From Sulfuricurvum kujiense DSM 16994 (GTDB lineage: Bacteria > Campylobacterota > Campylobacteria > Campylobacterales > Sulfurimonadaceae): DNA of 64,000 bases. The stretch is from positions 1 through 64,000 of the forward strand of contig NC_014762.1 of NCBI RefSeq assembly GCF_000183725.1, read 5' to 3'. The translations under genes and the position numbers were made by a program. Below, one piece after another: positions 7,025 through 60,393 of this stretch. Each line of letters begins with the position of its first letter. The first letter of the stretch is position 1. The notes under the pieces were generated by a model. That model searched no databases. It had not been told where the DNA came from and saw only the letters and a program-made list of their open reading frames with translations.

Positions 7025-7049
7025 ATATAAAGGGAAAAACCCTTTATAT
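7025..7049. terminator. Bidirectional terminator between queF and pstB
   Basis: Perfect 10-bp inverted repeat, ATATAAAGGG (7025-7034) and CCCTTTATAT (7040-7049), with a 5-base A loop. It lies between the convergent queF (+) and pstB (-) genes and can serve both. Confidence 0.75.
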
Positions 7050-7834
7050 CAACCGAATTTACCGGTGATATATTCTTGGGTAAGTTTCTCTTTCGGGGTG
7101 ACAAACAGCTCTTCGGTGTGTCCTAATTCAATCAATTCTCCCAGATACATAAATCCTGTATAGTCGCTGACACGTGCCGCCTGCTGCATATTGTGGGTAA
7201 CGATGATGATCGAAACGCGTTCTTTCAACTCAATAACAAGTTTTTCGATCCCCTGTGTCGAAATAGGATCAAGTGCCGAGGTCGGTTCGTCGAATAACAA
7301 AACTTCCGGCTCAACCGCGATGGCGCGGGCGATACATAAACGCTGCTGTTGTCCTCCTGAGAGGCCGTTTGCATCGTTTTTGAGGCGGTCGCTGACCTCT
7401 TTCCATAATGCGGCGTCCTGAAGCGCTTTTTCGACACGTCCTTCAAGCTCCGTTTTGTTTTTAATACCTTGCAAACGCATTCCGTAAGCGACATTGTCAA
7501 AAATAGACATCGGAAATGCGGTCGGTTTTTGGAAAATCATCCCGATTTTAGTCCGCAAAAAGATAAGATCTTCTTTCGGATTCAAAATATTGCGCCCTTC
7601 AAATTCGATTTCTCCGTTGTAGGTATTGCCGGGATAAAGATCATGCATTCGGTTAAAAGCGCGCAATAGAGTCGTTTTACCACAGCCGGACGGTCCGATA
7701 AGTGCTGTAACGGCATTTTTGGCAATCGGCATCGAAACTTTTTTCAGGCTAGGTGATGACGCACCTTTATAGGTAAATTCAAAATTACGCACATGAAGTG
7801 CACACTCTTCTTTGATATCGATAATGCTTGCCAT
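7049..7834 (-). CDS. pstB: Phosphate ABC transporter ATPase PstB
   Basis: ATP-hydrolysing subunit that powers high-affinity phosphate import through PstA/PstC. The 261-residue protein has Walker [10 protein letters not shown] at 47-55, ABC signature LSGGQ at 158-162, Walker [13 protein letters not shown] around 179-190 and the switch histidine in IVTHNMQQA, a PstB hallmark. Three bases separate it from pstA, so it ends the pstC-pstA-pstB operon, which starts at a Pho-box promoter near 9.57 kb and stops at the hairpin next to the pstB stop codon. Confidence 0.98.
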
Positions 7835-7837
7835 GGA

Positions 7838-8680
7838 TTATTTCCTTTTTCCCATTAATAAAATAAGTCGTCCCATAATATTGAGACCTAATATAAACAT
7901 CGAGAGGATAAAGGCAGCTGCCCATCCGAGTTGCTGCCAGTCATCATAAGGACTGATCGCATAGTTAAACATTGTTACCGTCAGAGAAGGCATCGCTTCA
8001 TTCAAATCGGTTGTGAAAAAGTTGTCGTTAAACGAGGTAAACAGCAACGGTGCCGTTTCACCGCCGACACGGGCGATACCGAGGAGTACACCGGTCAAAA
8101 TACCCGCTTTAGCTCCGCGATATACGACATCGATTATCACTTTATACTTTGGTGCTCCGAGGGCAAATGCCGCTTCACGAAGGGTCCCGGGTACAAGTTG
8201 AAGCATATCATCGGTCGTGCGCAAAATAACCGGAATCATAATAATGGCCAGAGCGATAGCTCCGGCCCAAGCGCTGAAATGGCCCATAGGCATAACGACG
8301 ACGGCATAGACAAACGCCCCGATAACGATTGAGGGGGCCGACATCATGATATCGGAGATGTCACGGATAGTGTGGGCCAATTTTGAATTTTTGCCGTATT
8401 CGCTCAAATAGGTTCCCGCCATGATACCGAGCGGAACACCGATAAGGGTTGCCAAACCGACAAGGATAAGCTGTCCGATCAGAGCGTGTCTGAGACCGCT
8501 TTCAGCATATCCCGGAGGCGAACCTTCATAAATAAAGATATTCCAGTTCAGGGCATTAACCCCTTTCATAACCAAAACTCCGAGAATCCAGAACAAAAAG
8601 GCAAGGGCAATAATAGCACTTAGTGTCGAGAAAGTTAACGCTATACGGTTGATAATGATCCGTTTTTGTGTAGATGTCAT
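7838..8680 (-). CDS. pstA: Phosphate ABC transporter permease PstA
   Basis: One of two inner-membrane subunits forming the phosphate channel. At 280 residues it has an N-terminal helix (about 12-35) and five further helices, with the ABC permease coupling motif EAAFALGAPKYKVIIDVVYRGAKAGI (about 168-193) that docks on PstB. The ATG overlaps the pstC stop by 4 bases, so the two are translationally coupled. It carries the 'GGETAPLLFT' stretch characteristic of PstA. Confidence 0.97.
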   Translation of the reverse strand: MTSTQKRIIINRIALTFSTLSAIIALAFLFWILGVLVMKGVNALNWNIFIYEGSPPGYAESGLRHALIGQLILVGLATLIGVPLGIMAGTYLSEYGKNSKLAHTIRDISDIMMSAPSIVIGAFVYAVVVMPMGHFSAWAGAIALAIIMIPVILRTTDDMLQLVPGTLREAAFALGAPKYKVIIDVVYRGAKAGILTGVLLGIARVGGETAPLLFTSFNDNFFTTDLNEAMPSLTVTMFNYAISPYDDWQQLGWAAAFILSMFILGLNIMGRLILLMGKRK

Positions 8681-9528
8681 TGTCCTTTCCTCACTTTACG
8701 CAAAAAATAAAATTTTGCGATGGCAATAACGACAAAGCTCATAATGAGCAATGTCAATGCTAATCCGAATAGGCTAGAGAAATAAAGGGAACTGTCGGCT
8801 TCGGTAAACTCATTGGCAAGGGTAACCGGAATCGAAGTCGTCGGATCCATAATTGAGCTCGGGGTGTGATGGACATTCCCCATAACGAACGTAACCGCCA
8901 TTGTCTCACCGATCGCTCGGCCGAGTGCCAGGATAAGAGAACCGATAATACCTGCTTTTGCGTAAGGGATGATGACGTCTTTAATGACATCCCATTGTGT
9001 CCCGCCGAGTGCATAAGCGGATTCTTTGAGAATATCGGGTGTCGTATTCATCGCATCGCGGGTAACGGCAGCCATAAACGGAAGAATCATAATGGCCAAA
9101 ACAATTCCCGCTGCAAGCAGACCAATCCCCATTCCGCCGAAAATATCGCGTAAGATAGGGACGAAGAAAAACAATCCCCACATCCCGTAAATGACCGAGG
9201 GGATAGCGGCAAGGAGCTCAACGCTTACGCCGAAGAATCCTTTGATTTTGTCATGGGCGATTTCGCTCAGAAAGATGGCGACGCCGATCGCAACCGGGAT
9301 AGCCAAAAGCATTGCCAAAAAAGTAGAAGCGACCGAGCCGAATATAGCCGCATAGGCACCGAATTTATCGAGATTCGGCGCCCATTCGTCTTTGGTGATG
9401 AAATCAAAGCCGAAGGTCTGCATCGCTTCGGTGGAGTGATTAAAGAGGACCACAAATATCCATGCGACGATGAATAAAATCAGCAGTGCGCTGGTGCGGG
9501 TCATGTTTAAGAAGATTTTATCAATCAT
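8677..9528 (-). CDS. pstC: Phosphate ABC transporter permease PstC
   Basis: Second channel subunit of the Pst importer, 283 residues from ATG 9528 with six predicted membrane helices and the coupling loop KESAYALGGTQWDVIKDVIIPYAKAGI. A longer reading frame exists from a TTG at 9558, but the Pho-box promoter places its -10 at 9563-9558 and the transcript start near 9551, downstream of that TTG. The ATG at 9528 has an AAGG ribosome site and is therefore the start I choose. First gene of pstC-pstA-pstB. Confidence 0.96.
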   Translation of the reverse strand: MIDKIFLNMTRTSALLILFIVAWIFVVLFNHSTEAMQTFGFDFITKDEWAPNLDKFGAYAAIFGSVASTFLAMLLAIPVAIGVAIFLSEIAHDKIKGFFGVSVELLAAIPSVIYGMWGLFFFVPILRDIFGGMGIGLLAAGIVLAIMILPFMAAVTRDAMNTTPDILKESAYALGGTQWDVIKDVIIPYAKAGIIGSLILALGRAIGETMAVTFVMGNVHHTPSSIMDPTTSIPVTLANEFTEADSSLYFSSLFGLALTLLIMSFVVIAIAKFYFLRKVRKGQ

Positions 9529-9557: not shown

Positions 9558-9589
9558 ATTTTATTACATGATCATTACAACACTGTTAC
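9558..9589 (-). promoter_or_regulatory. Pho-box promoter of pstCAB
   Basis: On the minus strand: GTAACA (9589-9584), 5 bases, GTAATG (9578-9573), 9 bases, then TAAAAT as -10 (9563-9558). The two hexamers repeat at 11 bp and sit where the -35 would be. The same spacing occurs before pstS, phoU and the porin, which argues for PhoB binding. Confidence 0.8.
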
Positions 9590-9606
9590 CAAAACCTCTT
9601 TTATTA

Positions 9607-9678
9607 CGACAAAGGAATAAAATCCCTTTGTCTACGCATGAGGCTATGACGTTAAAGCTTGCCTCTTTCGAGGTAGAT
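9607..9678. repeat. Dispersed hairpin repeat, copy 2 (type A)
   Basis: CAAAGGAATAAAATCCCTTTG forms a hairpin, followed by a degenerate core (TCTACGCATGAGGC) and GCCTC-TTTC-GAGGT. It is closely related to the copies at 13.2 and 60.3 kb. It overlaps the last codons of cca, whose stop codon (9652) lies inside the element. Confidence 0.6.
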
Positions 9679-11040
9679 ATTAAGCCATTCCAGTGCTTGA
9701 TCCCGGGTGAAAAACAGTTGATTAAGTTGGGCGTCGTAGGCATCATTCAGGATCGATTTAAAGGCTTCGGAAGGAGGCATTCCCAACGCGATCAGATCGC
9801 GTCCCATCAATAGTGGAACGGGCGGTTCAACTAAAACACCTAATGCTGAAGCTCTCTCATAGAGCCACTCGCCCGCTTCAAAATGTTCAGGGATATTTCC
9901 GACGAAGGCTCTTCCGAAAAAATCGGCTTTTGCAACCAAAATCAGATCACGGATACAGACGTATGTACTCAGACGGAGAATGTCGCTGTCGAGGGCATTT
10001 GAGCGATACAGTTTTCGCGGCCATCCGTGATAACGGATAAGGGGTAAAATACGGCTGATGAGTGTTTTGTCTTCGGTTACCCGTTCCAGCCAGTCTTGGG
10101 CCATTTCAGCTCCGATTTCGGCATGTTTCGGGGCATTGAGAATACCATCGGCGTAAAGAGTCGTATCGGGCTTGCCGATATCGTGCAATAACACGGCTAA
10201 CATCAATATGATATCATCTCTCCACTCTCCGCAACGCAGAGATGCCATCGAATCCAGCGCCATCAGGGTATGGACCCAAACGGAACCTTCGGGATGGGAA
10301 TCTTTTTCCTGGGGAGTTTCTTCTAGCCTGTCAAGAGGGGTAAAAAAACCAAGGGCTCCCATATCACGTAATAATGCCATCCCGATTGAGGGGCGGTTAC
10401 TTTGGAGGAGAAGCTTTTTAAACTCTTCAAAAATACGTTCTTTCGGAAGTTCATTAAGCGCTCCGTTTGCAATCATTTGGCGGCACAGCGCTAACAAGTT
10501 TTTATCGCATGTTAGCTCAAAACGGGCGGTAAACTGTACGGCCCGCAGTACTCGCAGAGGGTCGTCTATAAACGTTTCGGGATCAACGCATCTGAGCCGT
10601 TTGGCTTTTAAATCTTCAACTCCACCGAACGGGTCGAGAAGGGTTTGGGTAAGCGGGTCGTAACCGATGGCGTTAATCGTAAAATCACGTCGGCGTGCCG
10701 CTGCGGAAAAATCGAGATCGCTAAACCATTCCAGCTCAAATCCCTTGTGTCCGAATCCTGATTTGGATTCGGTACGCGGAGGGGAAAAGTCGATGGAGTA
10801 CCCTTCGTAATTGAGTTTTAGAACGCCGAAGCTTTTTCCGTATAGCCCCAATTTTCCGAAAGGGCGAAGGAGGGCTTCGAGCGTTTCCAGGGAAGTTACT
10901 CCGTAAAGCTCGATATCAAGATCGGATGTCGTGTGCCCCGTGAAGAAGTCGCGGACAAATCCGCCGACAAAAATAGGTTTGATCCCGTGATGTGAAAGAT
11001 GTTCAACCAGTCGTACCAAGGGAGGAAATAAAGGGATCAT
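9652..11040 (-). CDS. cca: CCA-adding tRNA nucleotidyltransferase with HD domain
   Basis: Class II nucleotidyltransferase that builds or repairs the tRNA 3' CCA end. The 462-residue protein has the catalytic head GGFVRDFFTGHTTSDLDIELYG (about 22-43, carboxylates in SDLDIE), the RRRDFTINAIGYD motif, and the nucleotide-selecting RVLRAVQFTARF. An HD phosphohydrolase-like domain (LLHDIGKPDT) follows near residue 290. The start overlaps the phoR stop by 4 bases, so cca is expressed with phoB-phoR. The extreme C-terminus runs into an intergenic repeat. Confidence 0.92.
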   Translation of the reverse strand: MIPLFPPLVRLVEHLSHHGIKPIFVGGFVRDFFTGHTTSDLDIELYGVTSLETLEALLRPFGKLGLYGKSFGVLKLNYEGYSIDFSPPRTESKSGFGHKGFELEWFSDLDFSAAARRRDFTINAIGYDPLTQTLLDPFGGVEDLKAKRLRCVDPETFIDDPLRVLRAVQFTARFELTCDKNLLALCRQMIANGALNELPKERIFEEFKKLLLQSNRPSIGMALLRDMGALGFFTPLDRLEETPQEKDSHPEGSVWVHTLMALDSMASLRCGEWRDDIILMLAVLLHDIGKPDTTLYADGILNAPKHAEIGAEMAQDWLERVTEDKTLISRILPLIRYHGWPRKLYRSNALDSDILRLSTYVCIRDLILVAKADFFGRAFVGNIPEHFEAGEWLYERASALGVLVEPPVPLLMGRDLIALGMPPSEAFKSILNDAYDAQLNQLFFTRDQALEWLNIYLERGKL

Positions 11041-12449
11041 TTTTTGGAAGGGCCCTTTTTTTCGACGAGATTTGCGAGGGAAAAGCTAAAGGTAGATCCG
11101 ATTCCGAGTATACTCTCTATCCGAAGTTCGGAATCATGCAGTTTTAAAATATAGCTGACGATGGAGAGTCCAAGCCCCATGGAGTTGTCCCAGCGGTTTT
11201 TTTGGACGCGGTAAAATTTTGAAGTAATTTTATCAAGTTCTGATTGAGCGATTCCGATCCCTTTGTCGCTAACGCTCAGGGTATTATCCGTTAGTGTCAC
11301 CGTTACCTCTTCATCCGAATATTTGAGTGCATTGTCGATGAGATTGGTAATGATTAGTTCAATCATCGTTTTATCGGCAAAAACGGTTTTTGCCGTACCG
11401 TGGTAAGTAATGGAGCGTGCCGGATATTTGGCTTGCAGAATAGAGATCGAATCATGACATATGTCGGAAATATTGAATGACGAAGGTTTAATGGAGAGGT
11501 CGTTGTTTTCTAGTTTTACGGAAAGTGCCAGACGGTCCAGCATCAAAGTAACGCGTTGGGTATTGGAGAGGATTTTATCCAAAAACTTTTCACGAATTTT
11601 GGGATCGATATTCAAATCATCATGGAGTGTTTCGGCATATCCCATAATGGCGGCGATGGGGTTTTTGAATTCATGGCTGATTGCGGAGAGGATATCGTTT
11701 TGCTGTTTGTTGATGAGGCGCAGTTTGGCGGTGTGCTTACGCTTTTGTTTGTCACGGTTATGAAGTTTTTTAACCAGATTTTTGAGAAGAATCGAAATTT
11801 GCAAAAACTCGCGAAAGTATTCCGGTTTGAGAACCGCCCGGTAGTTTTTGGCAGAAACTTCATCCAAATAACGGGTAATTTGGAGGATATCGTAACGTGC
11901 TTTTTTGGAGATGTTGTAAGCGATTAGCAGGGCGATAACGACCAGTATGCCGAAACCTCCGACAAGCTGAATCCATAAGACGTAAAAGTGTTTCATTACC
12001 CCTTCGAGACTCATAGCAAGGCGGATGTAAAATGTCCGTTCGGGTGTAACAATTTTATGGGCGACATAGATGAAATCGGTTTTAACTGTTTTTGAATATC
12101 GGATAGCCGTTCCGTAAGGCTCCGTCATGGCATGCATTACTTCTACCCGTCCGATATGGTTTTCCATCGTCGTTTTATCGGCATCGCTTTCAGCCATGAC
12201 ATTTCCGTTTTCGTCGATAACGGTAACCCGTAGAAAGGTTTTTCCGGCGGCTTGGGCAACAAAACGGTCAAAATCGTTGGTTGAAGTCAGCAGAGGCTCT
12301 AAAAGATTGATATTTTCAATCAGCCGCTCTTCACTGTCATTTATGATCATGGATTTAAGGGTAAAATAGCTGATTAGCGAAGCAACGAACAATGCGGCGA
12401 CAAAAAGGCCTAAAACATTAAGAAAGAAAAGCTGATGGATCCTTAGCAC
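11037..12449 (-). CDS. phoR: Sensor histidine kinase, PhoR-like
   Basis: Membrane histidine kinase of the phosphate two-component system (role inferred from context). At 470 residues it has helices near 10-32 and 157-180 enclosing a periplasmic domain of about 120 residues, a HAMP-like linker, the HisKA phosphoacceptor H259 in SAISHEFKNP, and the ATPase boxes NLIDNALKYS, DKGIGIAQ and GLGLSIV. The start overlaps the regulator gene by 7 bases and the stop overlaps cca. A large periplasmic sensor domain differs from E. coli PhoR, which senses through PstB/PhoU; the Campylobacter PhosS type is similar. Confidence 0.88.
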   Translation of the reverse strand: MLRIHQLFFLNVLGLFVAALFVASLISYFTLKSMIINDSEERLIENINLLEPLLTSTNDFDRFVAQAAGKTFLRVTVIDENGNVMAESDADKTTMENHIGRVEVMHAMTEPYGTAIRYSKTVKTDFIYVAHKIVTPERTFYIRLAMSLEGVMKHFYVLWIQLVGGFGILVVIALLIAYNISKKARYDILQITRYLDEVSAKNYRAVLKPEYFREFLQISILLKNLVKKLHNRDKQKRKHTAKLRLINKQQNDILSAISHEFKNPIAAIMGYAETLHDDLNIDPKIREKFLDKILSNTQRVTLMLDRLALSVKLENNDLSIKPSSFNISDICHDSISILQAKYPARSITYHGTAKTVFADKTMIELIITNLIDNALKYSDEEVTVTLTDNTLSVSDKGIGIAQSELDKITSKFYRVQKNRWDNSMGLGLSIVSYILKLHDSELRIESILGIGSTFSFSLANLVEKKGPSKK

Positions 12450-13117
12450 AGTGTGTAACCGACTCCCCGTACCGTTTTGATATATTCTTTGGACTTATCG
12501 GGATCGATTTTTTCTTTGAGGCGGTTAATCGCAACGTTGACGGTGCGGTCTTGATACACTTCGTCACCGCCCCATACGTTTTCGAGAAGATAATCACGCT
12601 CAAGAACGACATTTTCATTCACGATAAGAGCATGCAGGAGATCGAATTCGAGTTTGGTGAGTTCTATCGGATTGCTTTCGATAAATACCGTTCTAGCAGC
12701 CAGATTGAGCGAGATATCACGGTAGGACAGATTCCCTTCATTCGAAAGCTTTTTAGTACGGCGCAATACCGCTTTAACCCGCAGGATCAACTCTTTCATA
12801 CTGAAAGGTTTGGCGATGTAATCGTCCCCACCCCGTTCAAATCCCTGTTCGATATCTTCGTCTTTGTTCTTTGCACTCACGAAAATAACCGGCGTCTGCA
12901 TTCCCCGTTTTCGCAATGACTCGACAAACTCGCTTCCTTCTGCACCCGGAAGATTCCGATCCATAAGGATCAAATCCACATTTTCTTCTTCAAGGGCATT
13001 GTTAACGTGTTTGGTATTGAGAAATCCTATGGTTTCAAACCCCTCTTTCGTGAGGTGATATTCCATAAGTTCCAAAATATCCTGTTCGTCTTCGACAATC
13101 AGTATCAACGCATTCAC
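12443..13117 (-). CDS. phoB: Response regulator, PhoB-like (OmpR family)
   Basis: DNA-binding regulator proposed to recognise the four Pho boxes here. I place the start at GTG 13117, giving 224 residues beginning MNALILIVEDE, because AAGGAA stands 7 bases upstream; the longer frame from 13153 runs into the repeat element. The receiver domain carries the acidic pair D10/E11, phosphoacceptor D53 in LILMDRNLP and the conserved lysine in IAKPFSMKE. The C-terminal winged helix ends VRGVGYTLC. It probably follows phoU on one transcript, with a hairpin repeat between them. Confidence 0.9.
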   Translation of the reverse strand: MNALILIVEDEQDILELMEYHLTKEGFETIGFLNTKHVNNALEEENVDLILMDRNLPGAEGSEFVESLRKRGMQTPVIFVSAKNKDEDIEQGFERGGDDYIAKPFSMKELILRVKAVLRRTKKLSNEGNLSYRDISLNLAARTVFIESNPIELTKLEFDLLHALIVNENVVLERDYLLENVWGGDEVYQDRTVNVAINRLKEKIDPDKSKEYIKTVRGVGYTLC

Positions 13118-13146
13118 GGCTGATTCCTTTTTTTTATTAGTGTAAA

Positions 13147-13230
13147 ACGCCAAAGGAATAAAATCCCTTTGGCTACGCTAGCCGCTAAGGCACTAAAGCT
13201 TGCCTCATTCGAGGCAGAAGCGGCTCGCAT
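13147..13230. repeat. Dispersed hairpin repeat, copy 3 (type A)
   Basis: Three successive hairpins: GCCAAAGG...CCCTTTGGC, GGCTA-CGC-TAGCC, and TGCCTC-ATTC-GAGGCA. Nearly the same string recurs at 60.28-60.39 kb. It sits between phoU and phoB, which face the same way, so it is probably transcribed and could tune expression or mRNA processing between them. Confidence 0.7.
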
Positions 13231-13250
13231 AAAAAGGTTATGCAAGAAGT

Positions 13251-13922
13251 CTAATTGTGCAAGTTTAACTCGCCGCCCTTTTGTGCATAGAGCATCAACG
13301 AAGCTATATTGACCGTACGATCACCGATTCGCTCTAATTTGCGTAATGTTCCTAACACTCTAACATATTCGACGGCAAGTTCATTCGCGTCGATGATCAG
13401 GTTTAGAAGCTCTTTCTCCATTAAAGAAAATAGATCGTCATTTTTGGACTCTTCGACCATCACTTTACGATAGGTATCGTCCGCGTCGCATGAGTCGATG
13501 TTATTTAAACATTCTGAAATGTATTGTAACGCATTGATCGTTGTTTTATGCAACTGAACGATCGCATTGGTCAAAACGCTCATGTCGCATCCTCCCATAC
13601 AGTGGTCATGCAAACGTTTGCTGTATTTTTTGAGTCCGTCGCCGATACGGTCAATTTCATTGGTCATTTTCAAATATGCGACAAGCAATCGTAACTCATC
13701 GGCTTCTGGACCGAAAAGGGCGAATGTTTTAATAATTTCGTTATCAATTTTGTTGGCATCCACTTGAATATTTTTAATATAGGTACGTGAGATCTCGTAC
13801 AGTTCTGCATTGTCGGTTTCAAATGCTTTGAGCGTCTCTTCGCTTGATTGAATAATCTGAGAGAGCATTACGGAGATCATTCCCCGAATTTCATTGAGTT
13901 TGTTTTCATAGCGTGGTAGCAT
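13251..13922 (-). CDS. phoU: Phosphate signalling regulator PhoU
   Basis: Links Pst transporter activity to the sensor kinase and represses the Pho response when phosphate is plentiful. The 223-residue protein consists of two PhoU repeats of three helices (about 10-100 and 110-210), with the metal-binding-type motif LGTLRKLERIGDRTVNIA near the end. An RNA leader of about 25 bases is expected from the Pho-box promoter at 13.95-13.99 kb, which is back to back with that of pstS. It likely heads phoU-phoB-phoR-cca. Confidence 0.95.
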   Translation of the reverse strand: MLPRYENKLNEIRGMISVMLSQIIQSSEETLKAFETDNAELYEISRTYIKNIQVDANKIDNEIIKTFALFGPEADELRLLVAYLKMTNEIDRIGDGLKKYSKRLHDHCMGGCDMSVLTNAIVQLHKTTINALQYISECLNNIDSCDADDTYRKVMVEESKNDDLFSLMEKELLNLIIDANELAVEYVRVLGTLRKLERIGDRTVNIASLMLYAQKGGELNLHN

Positions 13923-13953
13923 TAGCGTGCCTTTGATTAAATGATGGTGCGCG

Positions 13954-13985
13954 ATTATAACAATGATTTATAACCGTGAGATTAC
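13954..13985 (-). promoter_or_regulatory. Pho-box promoter of phoU
   Basis: On the minus strand: GTAATC (13985-13980), 5 bases, GTTATA (13974-13969), 9 bases, TATAAT (13959-13954). Spacing is identical to the pstS, pstC and porin promoters. It is divergent from the pstS box, which explains the inverted repeat GATTACAAA...TTTGTAATC across 13980-14009. Confidence 0.8.
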
Positions 13986-14003
13986 AAACATAAATGGACT
14001 TTT

Positions 14004-14035
14004 GTAATCGTTTCGTTACCGGAGGCCTCTACAAT
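14004..14035 (+). promoter_or_regulatory. Pho-box promoter of pstS
   Basis: GTAATC (14004-14009), 5 bases, GTTACC (14015-14020), 9 bases, TACAAT (14030-14035). The repeat occupies the -35 region, so transcription probably needs the activator. The start of the transcript is expected near 14042, 26 bases before the ATG. Confidence 0.85.
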
Positions 14036-14067
14036 ACGTCCATCAAAAATTCCAAAAGGATTCCATC

Positions 14068-15069
14068 ATGCTAACAAATGTCATTAAAGGTTTGGTTATC
14101 GCTGGCGTAGCGGCAACTTCTATGATCGCAGCAGACAAAATCAACGGTGCAGGTGCTACATTCCCGGCTCCGGTATATTACGATTGGGCGTATAACTATC
14201 AAAAAGCGACTAAAACACGTGTTAACTATCAAGCAATCGGATCAGGCGGCGGTATCAAGCAAATCTCTGAGCGTATCGTAGATTTCGGTGCAACAGATGC
14301 TCCTTTGACACAAAAAGAACTTGACAAAGCAAAATTGACTCAGTTTCCTGCGGTTATCGGTTCTATCGTTGTAGCACATAACCTTCCGGGTGTAGCGGAC
14401 GAAAAATTGAAACTTAAAAACTCTGTTGTTGCTGACATTTTCGCCGGTAAAATTACAATGTGGAACGATCCTGCTATCACTGCGGACAATGCGGGTATCA
14501 AGCTTCCGGCAGAAAAAATTATCGTTGCTCACCGTTCAGACGGATCAGGAACTACCTATGTTTTTACCGATTTCTTGAGTGATTCGTCACAAAACTGGAA
14601 AAGCAAATTCGGTATCGGTAAAGCGATCGGCTGGGCAACCGGTGTCGGCGGAAAAGGGAATGAGGGTGTAACAAACCTTATCAAACAAACTCCGTACTCA
14701 ATCGGGTATATCGAAAATGCGTATAAAGAGAAAAACAACCTTTCAGCCGCAACTTTGCAAACAGCAAGCGGAAAATGGGTAACTGCTACTAAAGCAAACT
14801 TTATGGCAGCGGTTAAACAAGCTTCTTGGAAAAAATCAGAAGGCTTCTACGGATCATTGGTATCTCAAAAAGGCGATACTGCATATCCGATCGTAGCGGC
14901 AACGTACATCCTTTTACCGAAAGAGAAAGCGGAAATGAATGACCAAGTTATCAAATTCTTTGACTATGCGTTCAAAAACGGCGACAAAGCGGCTGAAAAA
15001 TTGGGTTATATCCCATTGCCGGTTGAAACAACCAATCTTGTCCGCGAATATTGGGCAGAAACTAAATAA
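14068..15069 (+). CDS. pstS: Periplasmic phosphate-binding protein PstS
   Basis: Captures phosphate in the periplasm and delivers it to PstCAB. The 333-residue precursor has a signal peptide (about 1-20, ending SMIAA), then GAGATFPAPVY (about 27-37), GSGGGIKQI and the anion-binding loop AHRSDGSGTTYVF, all PstS family hallmarks. AAAAGGA precedes the ATG. It is transcribed alone from its own Pho-box promoter, divergently from phoU and apart from pstCAB, which allows higher expression of the binding protein. Confidence 0.97.
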   Translation: MLTNVIKGLVIAGVAATSMIAADKINGAGATFPAPVYYDWAYNYQKATKTRVNYQAIGSGGGIKQISERIVDFGATDAPLTQKELDKAKLTQFPAVIGSIVVAHNLPGVADEKLKLKNSVVADIFAGKITMWNDPAITADNAGIKLPAEKIIVAHRSDGSGTTYVFTDFLSDSSQNWKSKFGIGKAIGWATGVGGKGNEGVTNLIKQTPYSIGYIENAYKEKNNLSAATLQTASGKWVTATKANFMAAVKQASWKKSEGFYGSLVSQKGDTAYPIVAATYILLPKEKAEMNDQVIKFFDYAFKNGDKAAEKLGYIPLPVETTNLVREYWAETK

Positions 15070-15073
15070 CTTT

Positions 15074-15158
15074 AACGCAAAGGGAGTTATTCTTCCTTTA
15101 GCCGTGTTAGCGCCGGGTTTTACCCAAAGGGCCCTTCTCCTTCGAGGGGAAGCCCAAA
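15074..15158. repeat. Dispersed hairpin repeat, copy 4 (diverged type B)
   Basis: Starts AACGCAAAGGG and keeps a diverged core (AGCCGTGTTAGCGCCGGG) and a CTTCTCC-TTC-GAGGGGAAG-like hairpin. It occupies the first part of the 340-base pstS-porin gap. The rest of that gap holds the pstS terminator and the porin promoter. Confidence 0.5.
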
Positions 15159-15275
15159 TCAAAAAATTTCTCTAAAATCGTTTCTGATTTCGATAGCTTT
15201 AAGAACATATCGGTGTCTTTAAAGGTGTCTTTTTAGACCCACGTTTCATTCTCCTTCTTCAATACCTTAAGTTTT

Positions 15276-15315
15276 ACTCATCTGTCCTTGCGTATGCGTT
15301 CAGATGAGTGTTTTT
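15276..15315 (+). terminator. Rho-independent terminator after pstS
   Basis: ACTCATCTG (15276-15284) pairs with CAGATGAGT (15301-15309), a 9-bp stem with a 16-base loop, followed by GTTTTT. It separates pstS from the porin gene, so the porin needs its own promoter. Confidence 0.8.
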
Positions 15316-15348
15316 CATTCATTTTCCTTATCGTAATCATTTTGCAAT

Positions 15349-15380
15349 GTAACATTGGCGTAATCTATTTTTTCTACAAT
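15349..15380 (+). promoter_or_regulatory. Pho-box promoter of the outer-membrane porin gene
   Basis: GTAACA (15349-15354), 5 bases, GTAATC (15360-15365), 9 bases, TACAAT (15375-15380). The architecture is the same as at pstS, phoU and pstC. A third GTAATC lies upstream at 15333-15338, out of the 11-bp register. Confidence 0.8.
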
Positions 15381-15409: not shown

Positions 15410-16777
15410 ATGAAAAAAGTTGCATTATCTGCCCTTGCTGCGGTAGTGATTAGCGGTGTTGCATCAGCCGATGCATTGACTCTTTACAGTGATCCGAAAA
15501 CAGGACAGGTTTACACAACTCCTGGTGAAGGGCGTGTTGAAATGGGCGATTTCGTCAGCGCAAAAGAAGTTGACATGCAAATGCGCGATTTGGAATCAAA
15601 AGGTTCTGAATACCAAGACAAAATGTCTAAATACGTAAACGTAAAATCTAAAGCTAAAACACTTGAGTTCAGCGGTACTCACTATTTCGGTTTGACATCG
15701 GCAAGCCCGTCTACAACAGTTTCAGATGCGGATGGATCACATACTAGTAAATATGCAGGGACATCGACCGGATTTGAATTGCGCCGTAACTATGTGCAAG
15801 TAAAAGCCTATTTCAATGATAAAGATTATTTCCGCGTAACAATGGATACGACAAAAGAACTTGCATCTTCAACAAGCTATGCAAATATCTATGCGAAATA
15901 TGCTTATTTGTATCTTGACAAAGTACTTCCGTATACCGGTGTTGAGATCGGTATTGCGCACCGTCCGTGGATCGATTACGAAGAGCACAATGCATGGCAT
16001 TACCGTTCTTTCAATAAAGTAGTATTGGAAGAAAAAGGGACTGCTACGGAAACTGGTGTTGACCTTGTTAACTCTGCTGACTTGGGTGTGAATTTCAAAA
16101 CCCAAACAGATGCTTTCAGCTCTGAAATCGGTATTTTCAACGGTGAAGGTTACCATGCCGACAAAGCGGCTGCTAACCAAGAAAACGATTCAAAACTTTC
16201 ACTTGAATGGCGTTTGACGGGACACATCCTCGGCAGCGGTACAAAAGTGGGTAAAAACGACCGTACTAAAGATACGTATGCCAATATCTCTACATACGGT
16301 TTGATCTCTAAAAACCATAAAGACGATGACGTCGATTTGCAAGGTGTGGACAGCCCGAATGAATACGACCGCTCTATTTACGGAATCCATGCGGTTTATA
16401 ACCAACCGGAATTCCTGATCGCGGCACAGTATTTTACGGCAAAAGATGACAAACGTACACAAAATATTGCTACAGGATTTGATACGAAAGATTACAAAGG
16501 TTGGTCGGTCAATGCCGAATACCGCCCTTTCCAAGATTGGACTGTTATCGGACGTTATGACAATTACAGCATTGAAAGCGAATTAAACGGAGTCGATGTC
16601 AATGATATCGAAGGTGATAAAATCATTGCCGGTTTGGCATACAAATACAATAAAAACGTAAGTTTTATCGCTTCAGCTAAATTCGCTGATGAAAAAGATA
16701 AAAAGGTTGCCGCGAAATCTTCAGATACCGGCGAATCTAAAGACGTTTATATGTTGACGACCGAAGTTAAATGGTAA
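15410..16777 (+). CDS. Outer-membrane porin, probably phosphate-responsive (OprO/OprP-like)
   Basis: A 455-residue outer-membrane protein starting at ATG 15410 (AGGAG 8 bases upstream); a GTG at 15401 in frame is part of the leader. Signal peptide about 1-20 (ending GVASA), then a charged, helix-prone segment (about 45-75), then alternating strands of a beta-barrel ending in W after VYMLTTEVK, a typical aromatic C-terminus. Its Pho-box promoter and position after pstS suggest phosphate or polyphosphate uptake across the outer membrane. Substrate selectivity is inferred; barrel porins are hard to tell apart by eye. Confidence 0.8.
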   Translation: MKKVALSALAAVVISGVASADALTLYSDPKTGQVYTTPGEGRVEMGDFVSAKEVDMQMRDLESKGSEYQDKMSKYVNVKSKAKTLEFSGTHYFGLTSASPSTTVSDADGSHTSKYAGTSTGFELRRNYVQVKAYFNDKDYFRVTMDTTKELASSTSYANIYAKYAYLYLDKVLPYTGVEIGIAHRPWIDYEEHNAWHYRSFNKVVLEEKGTATETGVDLVNSADLGVNFKTQTDAFSSEIGIFNGEGYHADKAAANQENDSKLSLEWRLTGHILGSGTKVGKNDRTKDTYANISTYGLISKNHKDDDVDLQGVDSPNEYDRSIYGIHAVYNQPEFLIAAQYFTAKDDKRTQNIATGFDTKDYKGWSVNAEYRPFQDWTVIGRYDNYSIESELNGVDVNDIEGDKIIAGLAYKYNKNVSFIASAKFADEKDKKVAAKSSDTGESKDVYMLTTEVKW

Positions 16778-60282: not shown

Positions 60283-60393
60283 AACGCCAAAGGGATTTTA
60301 TCCCTTTGGCTACGCTAGCCGCTATGGCACATGAAGCGAAGGGGAAAGCCAAACGAAGTGCAGGCAAACGATTGCCTCTTTGAGGCAGATTTT
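60283..60393. repeat. Dispersed hairpin repeat, copy 6 (type A)
   Basis: Perfect 11-bp stem GCCAAAGGGAT-TTT-ATCCCTTTGGC (60286-60310), overlapping GGCTA-CGC-TAGCC (60308-60320), and later TGCCTC-TTT-GAGGCA (60373-60387). It is closest to the copy between phoU and phoB, with an insertion of about 30 bases before the last hairpin. Lies in the 309-base gap after flgE. Confidence 0.75.

Follow-up and report, generated by a model that had tools for sequence, protein, structure and literature searches.

Do four promoters in the phosphate locus of Sulfuricurvum kujiense DSM 16994 carry a common binding site for the PhoB-type regulator encoded beside them, and is such a site peculiar to this genome? 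The question arises from a 64,000-nucleotide stretch of DNA (hereafter the window; contig NC_014762.1, positions 1 to 64,000), in which a first-pass annotation had read two GTWAY-type hexamers, 5 bases apart and 9 bases from a −10, before pstS, phoU, pstC and a porin gene, had taken the resulting 11-bp direct repeat as a PhoB-type site in place of the −35, and had suspected a diverged recognition code. From the sequence, the best explanation overall is that the four sites are Pho boxes of the PhoB type that would switch on phosphate genes under phosphate starvation, a reading in which we place high confidence.

The locus and its four promoters

On the minus strand, the locus runs in the order phoU, phoB, phoR, a tRNA nucleotidyltransferase-like gene and pstC-pstA-pstB, and on the plus strand it carries pstS, divergent from phoU, and the porin gene. 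The product of pstS (14068..15069, plus strand) is a periplasmic phosphate-binding protein (TIGR00975, 354 bits, cut-off 205), and phoU (13251..13922, minus strand) was identified by PF01895 and by TIGR02135, the latter at 93 bits and below its cut-off of 130. The phoB-type response regulator (12443..13120, minus strand) has the receiver and winged-helix domains of the OmpR/PhoB family (Response_reg, PF00072, and Trans_reg_C, PF00486, both over cut-off); the best of its 98 matching models was the PhoB equivalog TIGR02154, at 199 bits and below the curated cut-off of 296. A phoR-type histidine kinase gene (11037..12449, minus strand; HisKA and HATPase_c, nearest models PnpS and PhoR) lies upstream of the tRNA nucleotidyltransferase-like gene (9652..11040, minus strand; PolyA_pol and HD). 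Among the transporter genes, pstC (8677..9528, minus strand; TIGR02138, 283 bits, cut-off 196) likely starts at the ATG at 9528, which we preferred because the listed start at 9558 would overlap the −10; pstA (7838..8680, minus strand) was named from its position, its homologues adjoining pstC in relatives, and pstB (7049..7834, minus strand), the ATP-binding subunit, has a Walker motif.

All four sites proved to be exactly as annotated, hexamers and spacings included, and each matches GTWAY-N6-GTWAY-N10-TANAAT without exception. The pstS site (14004..14035, plus strand) reads GTAATC-gtttc-GTTACC-ggaggcctc-TACAAT, with half-sites at 14004-14009 and 14015-14020 and the −10 at 14030-14035. Facing it on the minus strand, the phoU site (13954..13985) reads GTAATC-tcacg-GTTATA-aatcattgt-TATAAT, with half-sites at 13985-13980 and 13974-13969 and the −10 at 13959-13954. 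The pstC site (9558..9589, minus strand), GTAACA-gtgtt-GTAATG-atcatgtaa-TAAAAT, has half-sites at 9589-9584 and 9578-9573 and a −10 at 9563-9558; a third GTWAY follows 11 bp on (9567-9562, minus strand) and overlaps the −10. Finally, the porin site (15349..15380, plus strand), GTAACA-ttggc-GTAATC-tattttttc-TACAAT, has half-sites at 15349-15354 and 15360-15365 and a −10 at 15375-15380. Every one of the window's eight half-sites has A at position 4. No sigma-70 −35/−10 pair was found at the four −10s; sigma-70 promoters of Campylobacter have no clear −35, so the missing element is weak evidence in this group. A repeat search reported none at the four promoters, where the imperfect 5-base halves make it insensitive.

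A palindromic repeat, CAAAGGNATAAAATCCCTTTG and then CTACGC, is dispersed, with copies at 9610-9637 and 13151-13178 (plus strand) and at 60288-60308 (minus strand); with up to 2 mismatches allowed, the genome contains its 28-base form six times. Two copies lie in the pho locus; the one between phoU and phoB could end or process the phoU-phoB transcript.

The porin (15410..16777, plus strand) is predicted to be a 16-stranded barrel (AlphaFold2 pLDDT 78.6, pTM 0.74) and matched no family in a Pfam search. Its gene lies in the predicted phosphate regulon. The top-ranked structural matches were the Pseudomonas phosphate porins OprP (2o4v; Z 26.8, rmsd 3.4, 311 aligned residues) and OprO (4rjw; Z 26.5, rmsd 3.0, 311 aligned residues), but PorB and other general porins tie with them, so that the structural comparison does not tell OprP from these; the identity is 15-16%. 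It is the Pho box and the position beside pstS that suggest a phosphate-uptake porin.

Specificity in the genome and conservation across the order

In the 2.82-Mb genome, the exact pattern has four matches, all at these four sites before phosphate genes and not at random density, and a reversed control pattern has none. The pattern was derived from the four window sites, which match it by construction, so the evidence lies in its absence from the rest of the genome and its presence in other genomes. With one mismatch allowed, the whole genome yields 8 further matches against 10 for the control, and at this background level we rejected such matches as further members of the regulon.

For the comparison, sequence flanking pstS was taken from another 93 genomes of the order, which brought the number of independent pstS loci to 94. 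A strict pattern for relatives, GTWAY-N6-GTWAY-N10-TANNNT, occurs upstream of pstS in 71 of the 94 loci, spread over 15 of the 19 families and 31 of the 43 genera sampled, against a mean of 0.005 in shuffled sequences. When the −10 was not required, GTWAY pairs had a period of 11 bp in 78 of the 94 loci, with every other period between 6 and 23 in at most 12 loci, and the gap from GTWAY to a −10-like hexamer had a single peak at 10 bases (66 cases). A matrix trained on the 71 loci gave near matches in 17 of the other 23, compared with 2.4% of random windows from the same loci. In two loci (L049 and L058) pstS has no box and the porin gene just upstream is boxed; at four of the 94 (L074, L079, L095 and L128) neither a pstS box nor a boxed upstream gene was identified. 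More than two units in register occur at some promoters of L101 and L109. The order-wide consensus is TGTAACC(A/G)TTTTGTAACC, then 9 bp, then TATAAT. By the order-wide matrix the window's pstS site scores 25.2, with the phoU, pstC and porin sites weak at 11-16 and pstC the weakest (11.1). Among 31 loci from the genus and the relatives closest to it, the pstS box is retained in nearly all and the phoU and porin boxes in most; five have a 10-bp spacer between the pstS box and its −10.

That the likeness arose by chance, or from composition in AT-rich promoters of one neighbourhood, could appeal to the fact that the four sites themselves supplied the pattern and that one-mismatch matches in the genome equal the control. 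The recurrence in 71 loci against the shuffled mean, together with the sharp peak at period 11 and the one gap to the −10, already refutes this reading, and it is contradicted again by an alignment of the phoU-pstS spacer, in which boxes and −10s form conserved blocks and the rest varies; its probability is practically nil. What had been claimed first, an 11-bp direct repeat of the PhoB type at phosphate genes, is very likely correct on this comparative evidence.

Two candidates elsewhere in this genome, both scoring like the weaker window sites, were left unclaimed. One is a near-consensus box (L012 1501-1532; C4:1657532-1657563; one mismatch, PWM 15.2) before a DsbC-like ORF of 165 aa, whose ATG lies 6 bp from the −10; this match may be due to chance. 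The other lies near msrA (L005).

Across 1.36 Mb, matrix matches fell before pstS (86), pstC (32), porin genes (22), phoU (19), phoB (4), pstB (1) and others (33), some of the last again being porin genes. A PHO4/Pit transporter gene is preceded by a Pho box in two loci (L112 and L114, family f6), which also have two PhoB-type regulators near pst. At L087 (G186), boxes stand before genes for a glycosyltransferase, a metallophosphoesterase and a GDPD phosphodiesterase downstream of pstS; this looks like lipid remodelling under phosphate starvation, the metallophosphoesterase and glycosyltransferase presumably exchanging phospholipid for glycolipid. In two families (L059 and L120), a fused acyltransferase-GNAT gene has a box some 285 bp upstream; the products may be ornithine-lipid synthases, possibly placing ornithine-lipid synthesis under phosphate control. 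Within the window's own family, L120, L123 and L124 have strong boxes upstream of a short, conserved ORF (97-110 aa) that looks membrane-like and is divergent from a boxed porin gene. The consensus can be used to find phosphate-starvation genes across the order of Sulfuricurvum, Sulfurimonas and Campylobacter, and in relatives it already indicates GDPD phosphodiesterases, Pit transporters, porins and putative lipid-remodelling genes.

The regulator and the Campylobacter box

The PHO box bound by PhosR in Campylobacter jejuni is said to have been given by Wosten et al. in 2006 with the consensus GTTTCNAAANNGTTTC; its letters were not found in the open-text literature. We recognised Campylobacter genomes by a published C. 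jejuni pstS primer (PMC6250842), which was found, exactly or with 2 mismatches, in ten genomes, all belonging to one genus; family f16 was rejected as Campylobacter, the primer matching only genus g29 of family f11. Most of the primer-matching genomes, including all five exact ones, have ATGTTTCCAAAATGTTTCC or a close variant before pstS, 9 bp from a TAAACT-like −10. These boxes fit that PhosR consensus, and they agree with the C. jejuni box of the same period and a GTTTC unit to which the first-pass annotation referred. The box of the C. jejuni group, GTTTCC-AAAAT-GTTTCC-N9-TAAACT, shares with the window the frame, the 11-bp period and the 9 bp to the −10 but differs in its unit, which has T at positions 3 and 4 (GTTTCC against GTWAYC) and is not the unit of the window sites. 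The difference is small, and the odd one out is C. jejuni: most of the order (31 of the 43 genera sampled) uses GTWAYC, a code of which the C. jejuni box is a variant and which is not private to the Sulfuricurvum genome. Of the suspected diverged code paired with the local PhoB, the pairing with the linked PhoB is very likely, and the divergence belongs to C. jejuni instead of the window.

The window's PhoB shares only about 40% identity with PhosR, and an alignment of the recognition helices, PhosR DKTINIALTRLRNKF (TINIALTRL) against DRTVNVAINRLKEKI in the window, gives a matching helix change that is no more than suggestive. As an addition to the PhoB reading and not an alternative to it, there might be a tight protein-DNA code in which the single helix changes V195I and V197I turned GTAACC boxes into GTTTCC boxes, once in Campylobacter and once more, independently, in another family; we consider this rather unlikely. 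The TINIALTRL helix of the C. jejuni-group PhosR does co-occur with GTTTCC, and in family f6, where boxes range over GTAACC, GTTACC, GTTATC, mixed and pure GTTTCC forms, the four genomes whose boxes have two halves of the GTTTCC type (G354, G378, G383 and G368) all encode a regulator with TINVA, and so with I195 as in C. jejuni. Four further genomes (G382, G185, G196 and G351) nevertheless combine I195 with GTWAYC-type boxes, G373 has V195 yet one GTTTCC half, GTATCC halves go with V195 in family f4, and V195 aligns, in our alignment, with a residue outside the listed base contacts of PhoP from M. tuberculosis (PMC4832192). Still tentative is a broader proposal, in which the Pho regulon spans the order and its box passed step by step from GTAACC, by way of mixed forms, to GTTTCC in each of two lineages while the PhoB recognition helix changed along with it. 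If true, the order would hold a natural record of a regulator and its whole set of sites changing specificity at fixed spacing.

The repeats might instead be bound by another regulator of the OmpR/PhoB family that answers a different signal: response regulators are numerous in the genome (79 candidates at first look), and direct repeats of such spacing are general in the family (PMC4832192, PMC4415409). We regard this as very improbable, given that phoB adjoins phoU in the window and lies near boxed genes in many genomes, that the box precedes four phoB-type genes themselves in relatives, that the box-bearing genes have phosphate functions, and that the C. jejuni version of the box stands at pstS, a gene described as PhosR-regulated (PMC3197622).

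Pho boxes vary in sequence among bacteria (PMC4415409). In the literature searched, which included few subscription papers, no paper on a Pho box for the group outside Campylobacter was found, and the order-wide consensus, with the C. jejuni box placed as a variant of this wider pattern, seems to be new. For the window itself, sequence comparison makes it very likely that the four sites are genuine Pho boxes, an annotation of a known kind.

Proposed mechanism and comparison with Escherichia coli

The PhoB reading rests on the sequence and spacing of the sites, their specificity in the genome, their conservation across the order, their gene context and a geometry like that of E. coli. Under phosphate starvation, the linked PhoR-type kinase would phosphorylate the linked PhoB, two effector domains of which would occupy the pair of GTWAYC half-sites, 11 bp apart, in a head-to-tail arrangement. 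Placed just upstream of the −10, PhoB would take the place of the missing −35 contact and bring in sigma-70 RNA polymerase, switching on pstS, the pstCAB transporter operon, phoU and the outer-membrane porin gene. Lying downstream of phoU, phoB and phoR are probably expressed from the phoU box as well, and autoregulation is therefore probable. In this scheme we infer PhoB binding, the phosphate response, polymerase recruitment and co-transcription of phoU, phoB and phoR.

Corresponding steps are described for PhoB of E. coli: on repeats of this sort its effector domains are bound in head-to-tail order (PMC4415409, citing Blanco 2002), and sigma-70 is contacted by the loop that precedes its recognition helix (PMC3973317, citing Blanco 2011). 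The recognition helices differ at three positions, DRTVDVHIRRLRKAL in E. coli PhoB against DRTVNVAINRLKEKI in the window (D196N, H198A and R200N), so binding is not to be assumed from E. coli. The unit differs as well, CTGTCAT/GTCAT in E. coli and GTWAYC in the window, where the CTGTCAT unit does not occur at the sites. Family f17 has D196 in the helix as in E. coli, and GTCAT first halves in two of its three genomes, the only ones available for this comparison. The pstS promoter of E. coli MG1655 contains CTGTCACCTGTTTGTCCTATTTT, in which we assigned TATTTT as the −10. Both systems have two or more 11-bp direct units just before the −10, without a −35 and at pst targets, and in the E. coli pstS box, as in those of the window, 15 bp separate the G of the last GT (GTCAC in E. 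coli) from the −10.
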